A stretch of 64,000 nt of DNA. Origin: Brevibacillus sp. JNUCC-41 (GTDB lineage Bacteria; Bacillota; Bacilli; Bacillales; DSM-1321). The DNA is taken from contig NZ_CP062163.1 in the NCBI RefSeq assembly GCF_014844095.1, forward strand, positions 1,612,001 through 1,676,000, read 5' to 3'. Within the stretch, counting starts at the first letter, position 1, and each line of letters starts with the position of its first letter. This document shows positions 2,290 to 40,290 of this stretch, piece by piece. Under the pieces are notes generated by a model. The model did no database searches, had not been told where the DNA came from, and saw only the letters and a program-made list of their open reading frames with translations. Both the position numbers and the translations under genes were made by a program.

Positions 2290-2604
2290 TCAATTCTTCA
2301 TTATTTCCATTTCATCGACATTGACCGTCTTCCGATTGCGATAAAGGGACATTAGTATAGCCAGCCCTACAGCAGCCTCGGCCGCAGCAATCGTAATCGT
2401 GAATAAGGAAAAAACTTGACCCGTAATGGATGGCGTTACCCCGAATTTACTGAAGGCAACTAAATTGATGTTCGCGGCGTTCAGCATCAGCTCGATTGAA
2501 ATCAAAACAATGACCGCATTTCTTTTCGTCAAGGCCCCATACAGCCCTATACAAAATAAAACGAGTGCCAATACAAGGTAAGCCGACAAGGGAACTCCCG
2601 TCAT
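2290..2604 (-). CDS. nuoK: NADH-quinone oxidoreductase subunit K
   Basis: This 104-residue protein has three predicted membrane helices and matches NuoK/ND4L in length. The conserved stretch [15 protein letters not shown] carries the membrane-embedded glutamate that the family uses in the proton pathway. The second conserved carboxylate segment ([11 protein letters not shown]) is also present. The start overlaps the nuoJ stop by four bases, which implies translational coupling. Confidence 0.96.
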
Positions 2605-3119
2605 GATCGATCTCCCTCCTCATCATCTTTTTTAGCCAATACGATGGCACCGACTAAAGCAACAAGCAGGAGTACCGACATCACTTCAAATGGAATCACA
2701 TATTTTGAAAAAAGTTCGATTCCTATTTGCTTTGTATTTTCCTCATGCAAGGCCGTTGGCTGTACAGGTATATCCAGATTATAAATCCCCAGATAAACCG
2801 CCACGGCGAATCCAGCAACCGCTGCGAGCACGGAGAATTTCCCCCAGCCCCCTTTAGCGGGTGCATCATTTTCCTGGTGCTTTGTCAGCATAATTCCGAA
2901 TAGCATCACGATCGTGATTGCCCCTGAATAAATAAGGATTTGGACAATGGCGACAAACTCGGCTGAAAGCAACATATAAATGCCTGCAATGCCCAAGAAA
3001 GTAAAAACAAGTGCAATTACCATGTGCACCACTTTTGTTAACGTAATCAGCAGCACCCCGCCCAATATCGCGACGAGTGCCAAACCAATAAAGGCAATTA
3101 ATTCACCCGACAAGCTCAT
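2601..3119 (-). CDS. nuoJ: NADH-quinone oxidoreductase subunit J
   Basis: This is a 172-residue, five-helix membrane protein of the NuoJ/ND6 type. Visible family features are a first helix with [14 protein letters not shown] and the [22 protein letters not shown]-like third-helix region (here split by numbering), rich in small residues. NuoJ lies at the interface between the peripheral and membrane arms and takes part in coupling. It overlaps nuoI by four bases upstream and nuoK by four bases downstream. Confidence 0.95.
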
Positions 3120-3535
3120 ACTTTATTCACCTTCCGGATATTTTCATCATTTTCATCCAGCCATTCCAGATTTTTAAATAGATGATCACGGCTATACTCG
3201 GCCAGCTCGAATTGGTTCGTCATCACGATCGCTTCTGTAGGGCAGACCTCCGTACATAAATCACATAAAATGCAAATCTCGAAATTGATGTCATACGTAT
3301 CGATGATTTTCCCTTTTTTCGATGGGTCCGGATGTTTCTTACCAGTTAATTGAATACAATCCGTTGGACAAATCGTCACGCATTGATTGCATACAATACA
3401 CTTTTCAGGATAGAATTTTTGGATTCCTCGGAATCGGTCAGGGAGCGGAAGCGGCTCATTAGGGTAGTCATAGGTCACTTTTTTCCTCGTCAAGTTCTTT
3501 AATGTATAGGTTAAACCTTTTGCTAAACCAAGCAT
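3116..3535 (-). CDS. nuoI: NADH-quinone oxidoreductase subunit I (2x[4Fe-4S] ferredoxin-like)
   Basis: This 139-residue peripheral-arm subunit has two classical ferredoxin motifs: CIVCNQCVTICP near residues 46-57 and CILCDLCTEVCP near residues 86-97. These bind clusters N6a and N6b, which pass electrons towards NuoB and quinone. It is shorter than the Escherichia coli protein (180 aa) but complete in both motifs, as in other Bacillus homologues. The ATG is preceded by a GAGGGAT-like site. It sits between nuoH and nuoJ. Confidence 0.96.
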   Translation of the reverse strand: MLGLAKGLTYTLKNLTRKKVTYDYPNEPLPLPDRFRGIQKFYPEKCIVCNQCVTICPTDCIQLTGKKHPDPSKKGKIIDTYDINFEICILCDLCTEVCPTEAIVMTNQFELAEYSRDHLFKNLEWLDENDENIRKVNKV

Positions 3536-3568: not shown

Positions 3569-4576
3569 CTAAAAAAAGTTAATCAATTCTTTTATTAGTG
3601 CCGTCAAAAATATATTTGCTAATGCAACCGGAAGCAGTACCTTCCATCCGAATTCCATCAATTGGTCGGCCCTTATACGAGGAAAGGTTACACGAATCCA
3701 GACCAATACATAGAATACGGCACTGAACTTCAGACCGAACCAGATGGCATCCGGAATAAAATCCAAAAACGGAATAGAATTCCATCCCCCTAAAAATAAT
3801 ACAGTGGTTAGAGTTGCCATTGCAAACATATACACATATTCGGATAACATGAAGAAGGCCCATCGAAATCCAGAGTATTCAACATGATAGCCTGCAACAA
3901 GTTCGGATTCCGCTTCCGGAAGGTCAAAAGGAACCCTGTTCAACTCGGCAACCGCTGCAATAAAAAACACGATAAACGCAATCGGCTGAAGAAAAATGAA
4001 CCAAACCTTTTCCTGGGCTGCAACTATATCATTCAAGTTTAAACTTCCTGTTAGAAGAACGATTCCGACTAGCGACATCACCAAGGGGATCTCATAAGAT
4101 ATCATTTGCGCGGCTGCCCTCATTCCGCCAATCAAAGAATATTTATTATTGGATGCCCAACCCGCAGTGACGATTCCGATGGTCGATATACCGGAAATCG
4201 CAATATAATAAAGCAGTCCGACACCTATATCCGCAAATTGAAAGGCATTGGTGAACGGCAAGGTGGCAAGGACCATGAAAGCAGGAGCAAAAGCAATTAC
4301 CGGGGCTAAAATATATAACGGCTTATCAGCTTTTTTTGGTATCGTATCTTCCTTGATCAGGAGTTTCAAAACGTCAGCAACCGTCTGCAAGAGACCCCAT
4401 TTCCCCCCAATTTGGTTTGGGCCGACACGCATTTGCATGAATCCCATGATTTTTCGCTCTGAAAGGATTCCATAGGTTACAAACCCTAATACGACGAACA
4501 GGAGCAGGACTGCCAGACCAAAAAAAATGCCAAAATTCAGTAGGCTTGGAGCGGAGTGGAGAAGATCCTTGATCAT
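3569..4576 (-). CDS. nuoH: NADH-quinone oxidoreductase subunit H
   Basis: NuoH/ND1 is the membrane subunit that forms the quinone access channel against NuoB and NuoD. The 335-residue protein has about eight hydrophobic segments. It carries the conserved cytoplasmic loop RKIMGFMQMRVGPNQIG, the NRVPFDLPEAESELVAGYHVEYSG region split over residues 205-230, and the RVTFPRIRADQLM segment near the C-terminus. The start codon directly abuts the end of nuoD. In most complex I operons nuoE, nuoF and nuoG lie between nuoD and nuoH; here they do not. Confidence 0.97.
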   Translation of the reverse strand: MIKDLLHSAPSLLNFGIFFGLAVLLLFVVLGFVTYGILSERKIMGFMQMRVGPNQIGGKWGLLQTVADVLKLLIKEDTIPKKADKPLYILAPVIAFAPAFMVLATLPFTNAFQFADIGVGLLYYIAISGISTIGIVTAGWASNNKYSLIGGMRAAAQMISYEIPLVMSLVGIVLLTGSLNLNDIVAAQEKVWFIFLQPIAFIVFFIAAVAELNRVPFDLPEAESELVAGYHVEYSGFRWAFFMLSEYVYMFAMATLTTVLFLGGWNSIPFLDFIPDAIWFGLKFSAVFYVLVWIRVTFPRIRADQLMEFGWKVLLPVALANIFLTALIKELINFF

Positions 4577-5674
4577 TTATCCATCAACCTCCCCTAAAAC
4601 GATATCGATTGCACCTAATATCGTTATCAAGTTCGCCATATTTTCCCCTTCCAATAATTTCGGTAGAATTTGCAGATTATAAAATGAAGGTCTGCGAAAT
4701 TTCAAACGGTATGGCTCCTTTTTCCCTTCACTCGCGATATAACAGCCTATTTCTCCTCTTGGCGATTCAATTCGGACAAATGCTTCACCCTTGGGAACCT
4801 TTATTATTTTAGGAACCTTAGCAAGGATCGGCCCTTCTGGAAATTGCTCAACCGCCTGCTCGATGATTTTCAGTGATTGTTCGATTTCCTCCATTCTACA
4901 GTGATAGCGTGAAAACGCATCACCCTCTTCCCTTGTAGGAACATCGAATGTGAACCTGTCGTAAATGGAATATGGCTCATTTTTTCGTAAATCCCATTTC
5001 ACACCTGTACACCTTAAATTGGCACCGCTAAGCGAATACTGCAGGGCTTCCTCCTTCGTATAGATGCCCACCCCTTTAACCCGATTAACAAAGATTTCAT
5101 TCCCTGTCACAAGCTCATGGTAACCGGCAAGCTGCTCCCTCATATAAGGGACAAACTCGGCAACCTTCGCAATCCAGTCTTCAGGAGCATCCCATTTCAC
5201 ACCTCCGACACGCATATAATTGAATGTAAGGCGTGCCCCTGACAATTCAGTCAATAAATTAACGATCATTTCACGTTCTCTAAATGCGTAAAGGAAAGGG
5301 CTCGTCGCACCTATATCCAGCAAGTATGTACCCCACCAGACAAGGTGGCTTGCCACTCTGCCCAATTCCATTGCGATAACCCGCAAATATTCTGCCCTTT
5401 CGGGGATTTCCACCCCCATCATTGTCTCAACTGCATGGCAAAGCACATAATTATTTGTCATTGCCGCCAGATAATCGAGCCGATCGGTATATGGGATTAT
5501 TTGTGTATATTGCAGATTTTCCGCTAGTTTTTCCGTACCGCGATGCAAATACCCAATGACAGGTGTTGCCTCTTTTATAATTTCACCGTCAATCTTGATG
5601 ACAAGCCGAAAAACACCATGTGTACTCGGATGCTGCGGCCCGACATTGAGAAGCATTTCTTCGGTCCTTAACAT
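4577..5674 (-). CDS. nuoD: NADH-quinone oxidoreductase subunit D (49 kDa subunit)
   Basis: This 365-residue protein is the 49-kDa/NuoD subunit, derived from [NiFe]-hydrogenase large subunits, which forms most of the quinone-reduction cavity. The N-terminus reads LLNVGPQHPSTHGVFRL, which contains the quinone-site histidine loop. The C-terminus IDIVLGEVDG is the usual family ending. GGAGGTG lies before the chosen ATG. It is separate from nuoC, not fused as in E. coli, and ends exactly where nuoH begins. Confidence 0.97.
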   Translation of the reverse strand: MLRTEEMLLNVGPQHPSTHGVFRLVIKIDGEIIKEATPVIGYLHRGTEKLAENLQYTQIIPYTDRLDYLAAMTNNYVLCHAVETMMGVEIPERAEYLRVIAMELGRVASHLVWWGTYLLDIGATSPFLYAFREREMIVNLLTELSGARLTFNYMRVGGVKWDAPEDWIAKVAEFVPYMREQLAGYHELVTGNEIFVNRVKGVGIYTKEEALQYSLSGANLRCTGVKWDLRKNEPYSIYDRFTFDVPTREEGDAFSRYHCRMEEIEQSLKIIEQAVEQFPEGPILAKVPKIIKVPKGEAFVRIESPRGEIGCYIASEGKKEPYRLKFRRPSFYNLQILPKLLEGENMANLITILGAIDIVLGEVDG

Positions 5675-5679
5675 TGGGC

Positions 5680-6939
5680 TTACACCTCCACATCATAAGG
5701 CTGGTAATCTTTTCTAAGGGGGTACCCTTTCCATTCTTCACCAAGCAAAATCCGCTTTAAATCAGGGTGTTCATAAAAGTTAATACCTAATAAATCATAC
5801 GCCTCACATTCTGGCCAATTTGCTCCTGCCCATAATGGGACCAATGATGGAATAACAGGGGAATCCCTATCAAGTTTCACCTTCAAGGCAACTGATTGGT
5901 TCATTTTGAATGAATGTAAATGTACATAGATTTCCATATGGGTTTCAAAGTCCGTACCATGAAGTTCAGATAAATACGAAAAGTTAAGCTGTTCATCGTA
6001 GCGCAGAAATTTTGCTATTGAGAAATATGTATCCTGACTGGCCACTAAAGTGGGTACATCTTTTGATAATCTATTAATATAGTGCTCTAATAATGCCCCT
6101 TGTCCTATATGGCTCTCAATAGCAGAAACAATTTGATCGAGTTTCGACTGATTTGGGGAAAGTTCGCTAGGGGTGTTAATTTCCTCGCTTTCCTTTACAG
6201 CAGTCCTGTTCTTCGCAGCCGCCGCTTTCGCTTTGGCAGCGGCGGCTGCCTTCGCCTTGGCCGCAGCTGCCGCCTTTTGCTTCGCTTTATCCATTTCGCC
6301 TTCCGGCTTTTCCTCCGCCTCTTCTTTCGCCTGTTTTCGGGCCATTGCTGCTGCCTTCGCCTTAGCCGCAGCTGCCGCCTTTTGCTTCGCTTTATCCATT
6401 TCGCCTTCCGGCTTTTCCTCCGCCTCTTCTTTCGCCTGTTTTCGGGCCATTGCCGCTGCCTTCGCCTTGGCCGCGGCCTCCGCCTTTTGCTTCGCTATAT
6501 CCTTTTCGCCTTCCGGCTTTTCCTCCGCTTCTTCTTCTTTCGCCTTTTTTCGGGCCATTGCTTCAGCCTTCGCCTTGGCCGCGGCCTCCGCTTTTTGCTT
6601 CGCTTTATCCTTTTCACCTTCCGGCTTTTCCGCCGTTTCTTCTTTCGCCTTTTTTCGGGCCATTGCTTCAGCCTTCGCCTTGGCCGCGGCCTCCGCTTTT
6701 TGCTTCGCTTTATCCTTTTCGCCTTCAGGCTTTTCCGCCGTTTCTTCTTTCGCCTTTTTTCGGGCCATTGCTTCAGCCTTCGCCTTGGCCGCGGCCTCCG
6801 CTTTTTGCTTCGCTATATCCTTTTCGCCTTCAGGCTTTTCCGCCGCTTCTTCTTTCGCCTTTTTTCGGGCCATTGCTTCAGCCTTCGCCTTGGCCGCGGC
6901 CACCGCTTTTTGCTTTGCCAAGTCCTCCTTTTCACTCAT
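5680..6939 (-). CDS. nuoC: NADH-quinone oxidoreductase subunit C with long N-terminal repeat extension
   Basis: Residues from about 265 to 419 are the normal NuoC/30-kDa core, which docks on NuoD. Family marks are the WPECEAYDLLGINFYEHPDL region and the ending GYPLRKDYQPYDVEV. Residues 1 to about 245 are an extension built from roughly six copies of a 35-36 residue unit plus a shorter, decayed one. Each unit holds an Ala/Lys block (KQKAEAAAKAKAEAMARKK) followed by a short acidic linker with EKPEGEKD. The unit looks helical and highly charged, with no cysteines and no signal peptide. The ATG directly follows the nuoB stop. Extensions of similar flavour are known to me in other Bacillus NuoC proteins; their role is not known to me. 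Confidence 0.93.
   Translation of the reverse strand: MSEKEDLAKQKAVAAAKAKAEAMARKKAKEEAAEKPEGEKDIAKQKAEAAAKAKAEAMARKKAKEETAEKPEGEKDKAKQKAEAAAKAKAEAMARKKAKEETAEKPEGEKDKAKQKAEAAAKAKAEAMARKKAKEEEAEEKPEGEKDIAKQKAEAAAKAKAAAMARKQAKEEAEEKPEGEMDKAKQKAAAAAKAKAAAMARKQAKEEAEEKPEGEMDKAKQKAAAAAKAKAAAAAKAKAAAAKNRTAVKESEEINTPSELSPNQSKLDQIVSAIESHIGQGALLEHYINRLSKDVPTLVASQDTYFSIAKFLRYDEQLNFSYLSELHGTDFETHMEIYVHLHSFKMNQSVALKVKLDRDSPVIPSLVPLWAGANWPECEAYDLLGINFYEHPDLKRILLGEEWKGYPLRKDYQPYDVEV
6205..6925 (-). repeat. Tandem 105/108-bp coding repeats inside nuoC
   Basis: About six near-identical 105-bp units (one is 108 bp, having an extra Glu codon) lie head to tail and encode the Ala/Lys/Glu repeats of NuoC. The units fall into two subtypes. 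The upstream ones have MARKKAKEE followed by AEKPEGEKD. The downstream ones have MARKQAKEEAEEKPEGEMD and more alanine, and the array ends in a short run of KAKAAAA. The high DNA identity suggests recent expansion by unequal recombination or slippage. All unit changes preserve the frame. Confidence 0.93.
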
Positions 6940-7452
6940 CTATATCACCCGCTTTCCGGTTTTCGCTTCGTAACGGATTTTTTCTTTTAATTTATTGATC
7001 CCATAAATAAGTGCAGCTGGATTGGGGGGACAACCCGGTATATATACATCGACAGGTACAATTTGATCTACCCCCTTGACCACTGAGTAAGAGTGAACAT
7101 AAGGTCCACCAGCAGTTGCACAGGATCCCATTGCAATAACCCATTTCGGTTCTGGCATTTGTTCGTATAATCTACTTATTATTGGCGCCATTTTTTTCGT
7201 TACCGTTCCTGAAACAATCATGACATCCGATTGTCTGGGTGATGTCCGAAAAAATGAACCAAAGCGGTCCAAATCATAATGGGAGGAACCGACACCCATC
7301 ATTTCAATTGCACAACATGCCAAACCGAAAGTCATTGGCCAGAGTGAGTTACTTCTAGCCCAGCCTTTTATTTGCTCAAGTGTGGATAAAAAAATGCTAT
7401 GGCGTATTTCTTCCATTTCTTTGGGGGTAAGTTCATCCAGCTTCAATTCCAC
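6940..7452 (-). CDS. nuoB: NADH-quinone oxidoreductase subunit B
   Basis: NuoB carries the terminal [4Fe-4S] cluster N2, which reduces quinone. The ligands are visible: adjacent cysteines in [10 protein letters not shown], one in [10 protein letters not shown] and one in [10 protein letters not shown] chose the GTG at 7452, giving 170 aa, because AGAAGGTG lies five to six bases before it. An in-frame TTG at 7473 would add seven residues but has no such site. With the GTG start the gene overlaps nuoA by ten bases. The TAG stop is followed at once by the nuoC ATG. Confidence 0.95.
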
Positions 7453-7817
7453 TTTAACACCTTCTTTTTCCAAGCGTAAATTAGCCCAAGCATTAGGATC
7501 AGGACAAAAAACAGCATTTCAATCAATGCAAACAGTCCGAGTTCATCATAGGCAACCGCCCATGGGTAAAGAAAAACCGTTTCTACATCAAATATGACGA
7601 ACATCAATCCGAATAGATAATACCTGACATTGAATTGAACCCTTGAATCCTGAAAAGGCTCGATCCCACTTTCATACGTCGTATATTTCATATCTGTCGG
7701 CTTATAAGGCCTTAGCAGTCTACCAAGAAATAAAGCGATCACAGGTAGTAAAATGCCGAGACAAAGGAAAACAAATACAATTAAATAATTATTTTGGTAA
7801 ATATGCAGCTGTCCCAT
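7443..7817 (-). CDS. nuoA: NADH-quinone oxidoreductase subunit A (first gene of the operon)
   Basis: This is a three-helix membrane subunit (about 124 aa) at the junction of the two arms. The conserved loop TTYESGIEP holds the key Cys/Glu region of the family (Ser replaces Cys, as is common in Bacillus), followed by [20 protein letters not shown] with the conserved Asp and Glu. Two starts are possible. The ATG at 7823 touches the AAGGGAG site, while the ATG at 7817 has normal spacing and is preferred. It is the promoter-proximal gene. Confidence 0.94.
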
Positions 7818-7958
7818 GTTCATCTCCCTTTATGGATAAATCATGTTAAATGGGTACGATTCAAATTTGCTTGTCTTCTTTTTGGATAGCGTTTTAAATA
7901 TTATGCAGGGTAACACTCTTTTAGAAGCAACGTGAAAGGAGGGGATATGAAGTAATAA

Positions 7959-15386: not shown

Positions 15387-17615
15387 TCACTCAATAAGTA
15401 ACGTCTTTTCTATCCGATCTTCCCTTCCACCCTTTCTCGCAAAAATTATCGCTTTATACACACCTTTAGGCGGTAAGTTCTTTTTCAATACATCTTTTTT
15501 GATCAAACCGGAAGGTGCCGATTTGGACCAATCCAAATATCCAGCGAATTTCAAGCTATCTTCCTCATAAAGGGCAATACCGAATTCTTCAGCCCCGCGC
15601 GGAAGGTACATTTCGTATCGATATGTGCCTTTCTGGTCCCCTTGGCCAAAATCGAATCCCATTATCCTTGGGTAATCAGGCTCTTCTTTTACATATAAAT
15701 AAGGAAGGGATATTTTTTTGGTTCCTTCCATTATTATGAGGTATCCATCAAAGACTCCTTTTTTAAGCTTGGCTGGGTTGACCTGAAGCCCCACTTTTAT
15801 CCGTTTTTTCTCCTTCGGATTCAAAGTAAGGGATTTTGGCAATTCCCAAGTAAGTCCCGTCTCTTTCAATGGAACCATGAAGGAGTACTTCCTCATTTCC
15901 GTTCCGGTATTTTCTATGACTATCGTTTCATGATGTTCTTCAATTCCTTCTTTTTTCGTATACATCCCAAAGGACAATGAGCTCGGACTCAAGAGCGTGT
16001 CCGCTTTTAATGCTTCGTCGACCTGGATGCGTCCAGCCCCCTGTTCGTATGTGTGATACAATTGATTCGTAGATTTCCTTAATGGTTTGGAAGTGCTCAT
16101 CAATGCAGATTTCACTTGCTCAGGATTCCATTCGGGGTGTTTTTGCAGGATTAAGGCGCATGCTCCTGCAACATGCGGTGCGGACATACTTGTTCCATCC
16201 AAGGACATATATCCTTTAGGGATGGTACTTTCAATTTCCACTCCCGGTGCCAATACGTCAGGCTTTATTCCCCATGAGACGGTTACCGGGCCCCTGGAGC
16301 TAAAATCTGCGAGCTTATCCTGCTCGTTCTTATAAACAAATTGAACGGTTTTGCTCTGTCCTTGCTCCATGATTTGCTTTAGCTGCAATCCATCTCTTCT
16401 ATTAATAGAAGCAGCCGGGATGTTCATTTCTTTTTCCAAGCTTCCAGTAAAGGTCCCGCTTGTATTATTATAAACAATTACCCCCTTTGCACCTGCCTTT
16501 TCTGCATTGGATACTTTCTGCTGGAAGGTAAGAGTGCCACGTTCCATCAACACAATCTTATCCCGAACATGTTTCAAGTCCTCTTCATTGCCCAGCCCCC
16601 CAAATATGACATCCTCGGAAAACGTCAGGTTCCATTTTTTAGAGCCTTGAAACAAGGTTAAATGCGATTGATGCTTTTTCGACCCAAGCCCGTAAATCAT
16701 ATACGGAACCCTTAAGGGAGGAGTCGATGCCCCAACGGAAATCGCTTTTTCCGCTGTTCCGGGTGAGCCTACGGTCCATACAGCCGGACCGGAATTCCCG
16801 TTGGATGTCACGGCAACGATGCCGCTTTCCACAGCCTTATTCAATGCAAGGGAAATAGGTAAATCAGGGCCATTTACGTTATTGCCAAGAGAGAGATTCA
16901 ATACATCCACCTTATCCTTCATGGCTGACTCAATAGCCATCAAGACTTGGTCTGTATCTCCTGCACCGCCTGGTCCCAAAGCTCGATATGCATATATCTC
17001 CGCTTCTGGTGCAACGCCTTTCATTTTTCCATTGGCTGCAATGATGCCCGCCACATGAGTCCCATGTAATGTATCCAGGTCGCCTTGATTTTTGGTTTCC
17101 ATCGGATTTTCATCACCATCTACCAGATCCTTCCCTCCTTTATAAGCACGTTGCAAATCCGGATGTGTATAATCGATGCCGGTATCTATGATTCCTACTT
17201 TTACCCCTTTCCCGGTAATCCGGTGATTCTCCTTATCAAAGAAACCCCTGGCCCTTCCCCCTCCTATGTATGGGACACTTTTATCCAACACCGCTTGATA
17301 AACGGATACTTCCGTTACAGCCTGAATTTCATCCTCCTTTTTGAGTTGTTCTATCTCATTCATTTTCCCCTGAACGGAAAATCCATTCAGGGCAACTGAA
17401 TAAACATTCCTTAATTGAAGGGACGGATATTTTTCAATCAGTTTTTCGATTTTTTTTCGTTGAAACACCTTATCCATCGTGACAACAACCGTTACTTCCT
17501 TAGATTCAGATAGTTTTGGTAAAGGCGGCAGAATGACGGATGCAAATCCCTTTTCATTTTGATAAATAAATATAAAAAGGAAAACAAACACTATAAACGT
17601 TTTCTTTCCCAACAT
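15387..17615 (-). CDS. Secreted subtilisin-like (S8) serine protease with PA insert, Vpr-like
   Basis: The protein (742 aa) begins with a signal peptide (GKKTFIVFVFLFIFIYQ) and an inhibitor-I9-type propeptide to about residue 105. The catalytic triad is visible as Asp in VGIIDTGIDYTHPDL, His in LHGTHVAGIIAANG and Ser in LDGTSMSAPHVAGAC. A protease-associated domain is inserted between His and Ser (the KIVLMERGTLTFQQKVSNAEKAGAKG region). After the protease come beta-rich, Fn3-like segments. It is smaller than B. subtilis Vpr (806 aa). The ATG at 17615 has AAGGGG six bases upstream; the ATG at 17621 abuts that site. It lies between mnaA and atpI, where B. subtilis has no gene. Confidence 0.9.
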   Translation of the reverse strand: MLGKKTFIVFVFLFIFIYQNEKGFASVILPPLPKLSESKEVTVVVTMDKVFQRKKIEKLIEKYPSLQLRNVYSVALNGFSVQGKMNEIEQLKKEDEIQAVTEVSVYQAVLDKSVPYIGGGRARGFFDKENHRITGKGVKVGIIDTGIDYTHPDLQRAYKGGKDLVDGDENPMETKNQGDLDTLHGTHVAGIIAANGKMKGVAPEAEIYAYRALGPGGAGDTDQVLMAIESAMKDKVDVLNLSLGNNVNGPDLPISLALNKAVESGIVAVTSNGNSGPAVWTVGSPGTAEKAISVGASTPPLRVPYMIYGLGSKKHQSHLTLFQGSKKWNLTFSEDVIFGGLGNEEDLKHVRDKIVLMERGTLTFQQKVSNAEKAGAKGVIVYNNTSGTFTGSLEKEMNIPAASINRRDGLQLKQIMEQGQSKTVQFVYKNEQDKLADFSSRGPVTVSWGIKPDVLAPGVEIESTIPKGYMSLDGTSMSAPHVAGACALILQKHPEWNPEQVKSALMSTSKPLRKSTNQLYHTYEQGAGRIQVDEALKADTLLSPSSLSFGMYTKKEGIEEHHETIVIENTGTEMRKYSFMVPLKETGLTWELPKSLTLNPKEKKRIKVGLQVNPAKLKKGVFDGYLIIMEGTKKISLPYLYVKEEPDYPRIMGFDFGQGDQKGTYRYEMYLPRGAEEFGIALYEEDSLKFAGYLDWSKSAPSGLIKKDVLKKNLPPKGVYKAIIFARKGGREDRIEKTLLIE

Positions 17616-17666
17616 AATCATCCCCTTAGCAGTTATCTTTTCTCAACAACCTTGGAGTATGCAAAT

Positions 17667-39693: not shown

Positions 39694-40290
39694 TTATTTC
39701 TCATCCTCTTCATCCAAGTCATCTGCGTCTTCATCTTCATCTTCATCTTCATCATCTTCCAGGACAAATGCATCATCTTCGATTATTTCTTCTTCCAGAT
39801 CGTCGTCATCATCCACGTCATCATCCAAAAGCACTTCGTCGATGACTGGAGAACCTAGAATATCATCATCGTCGTCATCTTCATCCTCGTCCAGATCATC
39901 GATATCTTCTTCAAAGTCAAGGTCTTCGTCTTCCAGTTCATCGAAATCGTCGATAACGACGGCAGCCTTTTTGGCTTTCTTTTTCTTTTTAGGTTTTACA
40001 ACATGTACGACTTCTTCTTCAATTTGGTCAACCGGGTACCATGTTTTCAATCCCCAGCGGTTATCTCCAAGTGAAGTGAAACGGCCATCCACATTTAAAT
40101 CCGTATAGAATTGTGCAATTTTCTTTTCCACTTCCGCTTTAGATAAATGGTGCAGCGAAGCTAATTCACTAATTAAGTCTTTAAATGGAATCGGTTCATT
40201 TCTTTCCACTAACAAATCATATGCCATCTCTATCAAGGACATTTCCAACAATTGCTCTTTTGAGTATTGTTTTAAACTCAAATTCCGCAC
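39694..40290 (-). CDS. rpoE: RNA polymerase delta subunit
   Basis: Delta is a Firmicute RNA polymerase subunit that speeds recycling and lowers binding to weak promoters. Residues 1-90 are the folded HARE-type domain (LSLKQYSKEQLLEMSLIEMA and GRFTSLGDNRWGLKTWYP). The remainder has a lysine patch (KPKKKKKAKKA) and then a long Asp/Glu tail. At 198 aa it is longer than in B. subtilis (173 aa) because of the acidic tail. Confidence 0.96.
   Translation of the reverse strand: MRNLSLKQYSKEQLLEMSLIEMAYDLLVERNEPIPFKDLISELASLHHLSKAEVEKKIAQFYTDLNVDGRFTSLGDNRWGLKTWYPVDQIEEEVVHVVKPKKKKKAKKAAVVIDDFDELEDEDLDFEEDIDDLDEDEDDDDDDILGSPVIDEVLLDDDVDDDDDLEEEIIEDDAFVLEDDEDEDEDEDADDLDEEDEK

Follow-up and report, generated by a model that had tools for sequence, protein, structure and literature searches.

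The core subunits of complex I are strongly conserved, yet one of them, NuoC, can bear a tail that is longer than its own core. Among the closest described systems are the 11-subunit enzymes of Desulfitobacterium hafniense (PMC11238625) and Brevibacillus massiliensis (PMC9424855), which, in the available parts of both papers, are encoded by the set nuoABCDHIJKLMN without nuoE, nuoF and nuoG. As far as the same portions go, the electron donor of such an enzyme is unsettled (PMC11238625), and for B. massiliensis a complex I fed by ferredoxin has been argued (PMC9424855). A long form of NuoC is known to annotation, because the NCBIfam model NF005832 (PRK07735.1) describes a 430-aa NADH-quinone oxidoreductase subunit C, long enough to span a tail, and is matched nearly over its whole length by the protein described below. 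Our literature searches on tails, repeats, extensions and 11-subunit complex I, which covered mostly titles and the openings of abstracts and few subscription papers, found no discussion of the NuoC tail.

Two kinds of helical elements offer themselves for comparison. Domain II of TolA is a known helical spacer of 110-335 aa, helical or proline-rich according to lineage, and deletions in it are tolerated until the arm becomes too short, as the accessible part of the source describes (PMC12204202). The NuoC tail would resemble it as a long helical spacer whose length and composition are lineage-specific, which is a likeness of working principle and not of descent, while TolA differs in being periplasmic and in having terminal domains of its own. 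Single alpha-helix (SAH) domains, as presented in the available portion of PMC5347031, are likewise charged helices built from repeats with alanine fillers.

The nuoC gene and the nuo operon

The window, that is the whole stretch of 64,000 nucleotides that was analysed, is part of a genome that belongs to the genus Peribacillus, and the nuo genes lie on its minus strand. The open reading frame of nuoC (5680-6939) encodes subunit C of complex I with an N-terminal tail, 419 aa in total. Its core has 155 aa (5683-6147), just as the first-pass annotation had estimated, and is recognized by PF00329 (Complex1_30kDa) at residues 301-413 with an E-value of 2.4e-36 and 125.4 bits against a cut-off of 22.5. 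The fold of residues ~252-415 matches the 30-kDa subunits of complex I from bacteria, mitochondria and plants with Z of ~20. Core domain, operon position and fold are thus shared with the known 30-kDa subunit, and what differs is the tail. That annotation had put the extension at about 240 aa; a long N-terminal tail is indeed there, but it is slightly longer, 264 aa (6148-6939), and is composed of a cap, a repeat array and a linker to the core.

The cap, the first seven amino acids (6919-6939), directly follows the stop of nuoB. Comparison of unit DNA divides the array into units 1 (6814-6918), 2 (6709-6813) and 3 (6604-6708), each of 35 aa, and unit 4 (6496-6603), a 108-bp variant of 36 aa, all of subtype A, followed by units 5 (6391-6495) and 6 (6286-6390), of 35 aa each and of subtype B. 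A partial unit 7 (6205-6285), delimited by Tandem Repeats Finder and by reading of the protein, is the helical half without the acidic hinge. Tandem Repeats Finder reports 6.3 copies of a 105-bp unit over 6248-6915, with 94% matches and a score of 1078. Units 1-4 are 94-98% identical in DNA and units 5-6 95%, while identity between both groups is 87-92%. Thus the earlier description of about six near-identical units of 105/108 bp, of recent in-frame duplication and of two subtypes stands, with six full units and a partial seventh. With the tail alone as query, no other protein of its own genome was matched at E-values up to 10, and neither a PDB chain by sequence nor a Pfam family was hit. The whole protein matches NF005832 with an E-value of 1.5e-128, the best stretch being profile positions 79-430; its 429.7 bits fall 1.3 short of the curated cut-off of 431, so that it is filed under PF00329 only.

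Upstream of nuoC lie nuoA (7443-7823; PF00507, E 1.1e-37) and nuoB (6940-7473; PF01058, E 1.3e-31). Downstream come nuoD (4577-5674; PF00346, E 1e-96), nuoH (3569-4576; PF00146, E 1e-123), nuoI (3116-3535; two 4Fe-4S stretches, PF00037, named by its position), nuoJ (2601-3119; PF00499, E 2.8e-38), putative nuoK (2290-2604) and nuoL (384-2255), both assigned from size, position and sequence, and the start of nuoM (1-387), which runs past the window edge and is followed just outside by nuoN, the last two being recognized by NCBIfam. The operon therefore reads nuoABCDHIJKLMN, with A, B, C, D, H, I and J supported by Pfam. No nuoE, nuoF or nuoG is found within it, as had been noticed at first sight, and the gene set is the same as that of the 11-subunit enzymes. 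No match to NuoF (PF01512) was obtained anywhere in the one-contig genome, with the control positive in 9 of 14. A genome-wide search for NuoE (PF01257) gave just two weak partial matches over the cut-off, in frames of 114 and 136 aa, which we take for thioredoxin-like ferredoxins. The place of nuoC between nuoB and nuoD in the window is also kept upstream among relatives: nuoB precedes nuoC on the same strand in all 162 loci examined, and in 150 of them the chosen nuoC start lies -20 to 30 nt from the nuoB stop.

Distribution of the tail

Is the tail a peculiarity of this locus? NuoC is present in 32 of 36 genomes of the genus. Thirty of these loci were fetched (the remaining two have frames of 235 aa), and 22 carry intact Ala/Lys-rich tails, the shortest having 50 aa (L027); in four the contig stops inside the tail, and in four more the tail is interrupted by Ns or a shift of frame. 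The four remaining genomes of the genus (G009, G010, G011 and G022) are nominally complete and have no NuoC or NuoD match, and therefore complex I seems to be dispensable in Peribacillus. In addition, 80 loci from Bacillus and related genera were processed identically. In the class Bacilli as a whole PF00329 was found in 178 of 398 sampled genomes, and the tail is present throughout the class: among the 150 matches listed, second copies counted, 133 NuoC frames have at least 200 aa and eight have 175 aa or less, frame length being a proxy that may count bases ahead of the start. Elsewhere in the phylum such long frames are rare, numbering 7 of 71 among the matches listed (those below E 1e-30, with frames over 500 aa and the own genome left out), and four of these seven come from one family. 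By these counts of frames, the tail is a trait of the class Bacilli and not a novelty of this locus.

The sequence of the unit is lineage-specific, while its composition is kept. One type of unit is found in Bacillaceae and another in a second large family, which we take to be Brevibacillaceae; further families of Bacilli have a non-repetitive tail rich in Ala, Pro, Lys and Glu, of about 50-160 aa. Two Bacillaceae-type loci are exceptional in their short tails, L027 with 50 aa and L080, from Bacillus methanolicus PB1, with 76 aa, and L153, L159, L164, L168 and L174 are essentially without a tail (5-15 aa), which indicates that the tail can be lost. With this natural series of tail lengths, from 5 to 353 aa, it can be tested directly whether length matters.

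PF00329 has two matches in some Bacilli (G056, with L162 and L163, and G076, G079 and G109); in G056 one NuoC has almost no tail and the other an Ala/Pro/Gly-rich one. It was also observed that 16 of 92 distinct Bacillaceae-type loci are broken within the repeat: six stop inside the tail (L007, L023, L028, L029, L102 and L107), nine hold Ns (L018, L019, L022, L058, L073, L075, L078, L081 and L109) and one shifts frame (L013). Lengths of NuoC taken from draft genomes are therefore unreliable.

Turnover of units and bounded length

How do the units evolve? Sixteen of the 30 fetched Peribacillus genomes have clean units, and among their 79 units the nearest relative of 62 resides in the same genome, where 4.2 are expected and 13 is the maximum in 1000 shuffles. 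Units of one genome lie at a mean DNA distance of 0.091 from each other, those of different genomes at 0.198. Units at the ends of the array are barely more diverged (0.098 and 0.100) than those in the middle (0.080), and the position of a unit does not clearly carry over from one of these genomes to another, since first units were nearest to first units in 8 of 16 cases and last to last in 6 of 16. Even two species, L005 and L006, whose cores differ by 0.4% in DNA, have five and four units, respectively; a constant copy number with divergent DNA, which would have spoken against the recent expansion first proposed, did not occur among the relatives compared. Thus the units are renewed species by species: whole units are gained and lost in frame and are homogenised within a genome. 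At the same time they are under purifying selection, with a pN/pS of ~0.25 (0.28 within genomes and 0.24 between), compared with 0.16 for the core.

For the analysis of length, 19 named loci were dropped by hand, including the window's own and the short or tail-less, non-Bacillaceae-type L139, L159, L162 and L171, and 132 loci remained, 75 of them Bacillaceae-type. Seventeen distinct Bacillaceae-type loci stand outside the 75, namely that of the window (264 aa) and the 16 broken ones described above (six ending in the tail, nine with Ns, one frame-shifted), and none of them is a short intact tail. Tail length in the 75 is 250 +/- 52 aa, 73 fall within 180-350 aa and 73 exceed their own core in length, counts that are not independent since tails of different species share ancestry. 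In the 21 pairs whose cores are less than 2% apart, tail length already differs by 34.8 aa on average, or about one unit, and the difference reaches a plateau of about 53-65 aa at core distances from 12% to 36%. The one-unit difference between close relatives, the plateau and the narrow range together indicate fast turnover under a bounded total length, of which the NuoC tail is a clear case. Either selection on length or a balance of gain and loss without selection could explain the bounds.

Charge and predicted structure

The tails are rich in Ala, Lys and Glu, and the hinges of the window's tail are acidic. Their charge is near neutral: in all 135 countable tails of at least 100 aa (double-fetched genomes counted twice) the net charge per residue does not exceed 0.10 in either direction, and the median share of charged residues is 36%. 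A wider set holds 158 tails of any length, 16 duplicates among them, after removal of open-ended loci, of tails that contain X and of five loci where no start was identified. In this set the net charge is positive in 132, negative in 22 and zero in four, in a range of -8 to +19.

AlphaFold predicts seven tail helices for NuoC of the window and six for that of Anoxybacillus tepidamans, of 20-43 residues, which agrees with the probable helicity suggested at the outset. The two models have pTM values of 0.42 (Peribacillus) and 0.40 (Anoxybacillus), with confident cores, low-confidence hinges and tail helices of low to middling confidence. Amphipathicity is low: among tails of at least 150 aa, the helical hydrophobic moment falls short of the mean of shuffled sequences in 73 of 73 of the Bacillaceae type and in 29 of 30 from other Bacilli. 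Individually, z lies under -2 in 38 of the former and 12 of the latter, and is -1.9 in the window. Pairs of Lys/Arg at i,i+4 are less than half as frequent as in shuffled sequences (324 compared with 744). The predicted tail may thus be described as a helix without a sticky face. Over the 75 tails, Glu followed by Lys/Arg at +4 occurs 356 times, compared with 421 in shuffled sequences, and Lys/Arg followed by Glu at +4 469 times, compared with 425. Unlike SAH domains, the tail shows no surplus of i,i+4 Glu-Lys pairs overall and is interrupted by hinges about every 35 residues; judged by its sequence, it departs from the classical single alpha-helix.

What is the tail for?

The reading that we prefer, with a probability of about 0.48, is that the tail is a soluble helical spacer arm, in which length and helicity matter more than sequence. 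The repeat would then be the species-specific version of an old NuoC tail, one that belongs to the 11-subunit enzyme of Bacilli. This tail would form a chain of soluble alpha-helical rods with short, acidic, Gly/Pro-containing hinges between them, and this arm would project from the peripheral arm of the enzyme into the cytoplasm, with reach and solubility, rather than sequence, as the presumed objects of selection. In favour of this reading are the bounded length in spite of fast turnover, the purifying selection on units, the near-neutral charge, the low amphipathicity, the predicted helices, a composition that persists while unit sequence changes, and the similar pattern of TolA domain II; the short and missing tails, the modest confidence of the modelled helices and the possibility of balanced gain and loss speak against it. 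What could such an arm do? It might hold the N-terminal end of NuoC at a distance, where it could contact a putative partner in the cytoplasm or the membrane. Or, an exposed arm might be kept apart from its neighbours.

A tail without any job remains a serious rival to the spacer arm, though we consider it unlikely. According to this explanation the array changes by recombination as a tolerated passenger, and selection does no more than clear away variants prone to aggregation or wrong binding or with a shifted frame. The rapid changes in copy number and the homogenisation of units speak for it, L027, L080, L153, L159, L164, L168 and L174 have come close to or reached the loss of the tail, and low amphipathicity and near-neutral charge are the very needs of a harmless tail. 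Such indifference is more difficult to reconcile with the 180-350 aa that 73 of 75 Bacillaceae-type tails keep despite the high turnover, and with the 133 of 150 listed Bacilli matches whose frames reach 200 aa or more. Moreover, several positions of the cap hardly vary in the 75 tails: K11, for instance, is present in 74 and L7 in 69, counting the cap alone.

A more specific form of the spacer arm appears rather doubtful to us: a tether whose length itself is selected, with interchangeable helical rulers turned over by recombination, by which the N-terminus of NuoC, held at a fixed distance, would dock a soluble donor or a neighbouring respiratory complex. If true, it would be a cytoplasmic counterpart of the TolA spacer on a core respiratory enzyme.

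The first-pass annotation had further suggested that the extension could hold an alternative electron donor in place of the NADH module. In its more explicit form, Lys-rich helices would recruit a soluble donor, ferredoxin or 2-oxoacid:ferredoxin oxidoreductase. The alpha subunit of the latter (KorA-type, TIGR03710; one at G000:C1:3563289-3565001) is found in 175 of 178 NuoC-bearing Bacilli compared with 84 of 220 without NuoC, in raw counts that ignore kinship. Within Peribacillus it is present in all seven NuoC-bearing genomes tested (of 32, the window's own included) and missing from three of the four without NuoC. This co-occurrence fits the accessible part of PMC9424855, in which a complex I dependent on ferredoxin is argued for B. 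massiliensis. It ties the complex to ferredoxin, however, and not the tail, and the NuoC-less G011 retains the oxidoreductase.

Can the enzyme without NuoF do without the tail? Among the 178 NuoC-bearing Bacilli, PF01512 has a match in nine and none in 169, and one of them, G210, has neither PF01512 nor a tail but does have the oxidoreductase. In other classes, PF01512 finds nothing in G477, G490, G542 and G557, where the best NuoC frames, counted as frames alone, have 148-173 aa; in G557 PF00329 also matches a second frame, of 257 aa, and G542 is only 78% complete. G499, also without PF01512, gives a weak PF00329 match (2.1e-8) in a 132-aa frame. Four genomes of one family without PF01512 (G440, G486, G524 and G610) have NuoC frames of 235-307 aa, and in the three that were read the upstream part is rich in Pro, Ala and Arg, has no A/K repeats and in some portion probably precedes the start. 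The 11-subunit complex of the window thus differs in its NuoC from these sampled other-class genomes, which lack such a tail. From G477, G490, G542, G557 and G210, the NuoF-less enzyme does not seem to need the tail, and the tail, with its net charge near zero, is not the strongly basic surface that would attract ferredoxin. The suggestion of a tail-held donor, as it was made, thus finds no support here, and recruitment by Lys-rich helices is improbable; the co-occurring 2-oxoacid:ferredoxin oxidoreductase is the likelier donor link of the 11-subunit enzyme. The tail itself is a removable and countable part with which experiments can be done.

Self-association is very unlikely. Here the basic helices of one tail would be drawn to the acidic hinges of its neighbours, so that complex I would gather in clusters in the membrane. 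In two units of the window that were checked, the charge is +4 to +5 in the helix and -2 to -3 in the hinge, and segregation of charge exceeds that of shuffled sequences in many Bacillaceae tails, with z up to 6.9. The same z is only 0.3-0.9 in the window and mostly about -0.4 to 2.4 in the long tails of the second large type (L116-L141), and low amphipathicity speaks against coiled coils. Binding of the Ala/Lys helices to membrane or nucleic acid, or their assembly into a coiled coil, which the high Lys content might suggest, can hardly be believed, because the hydrophobic moment and the i,i+4 Lys/Arg pairs are below those of shuffled sequences and the net charge is near neutral.

Base composition and other features of the window

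The segment that encodes the tail (6148-6939) is a GC-rich island, with 56% GC compared with 43% for the window. Its third-position GC is 0.57, against 0.37 in reference genes, and AAG makes up 0.65 of its Lys codons, against 0.30. Preference for AAG is higher in the tail than in the core at 92 of 119 loci. High third-position GC was considered as a signature of gene conversion and was dropped since it is not general: the tail exceeds the core at only 65 of 119 loci, duplicates counted. Elsewhere in the window, a 744-aa open reading frame (15387-17621) just upstream of the ATP synthase genes has a subtilase-like sequence, as named by eye, and a TCATCT hexamer is repeated 5.8 times at 39719-39753.
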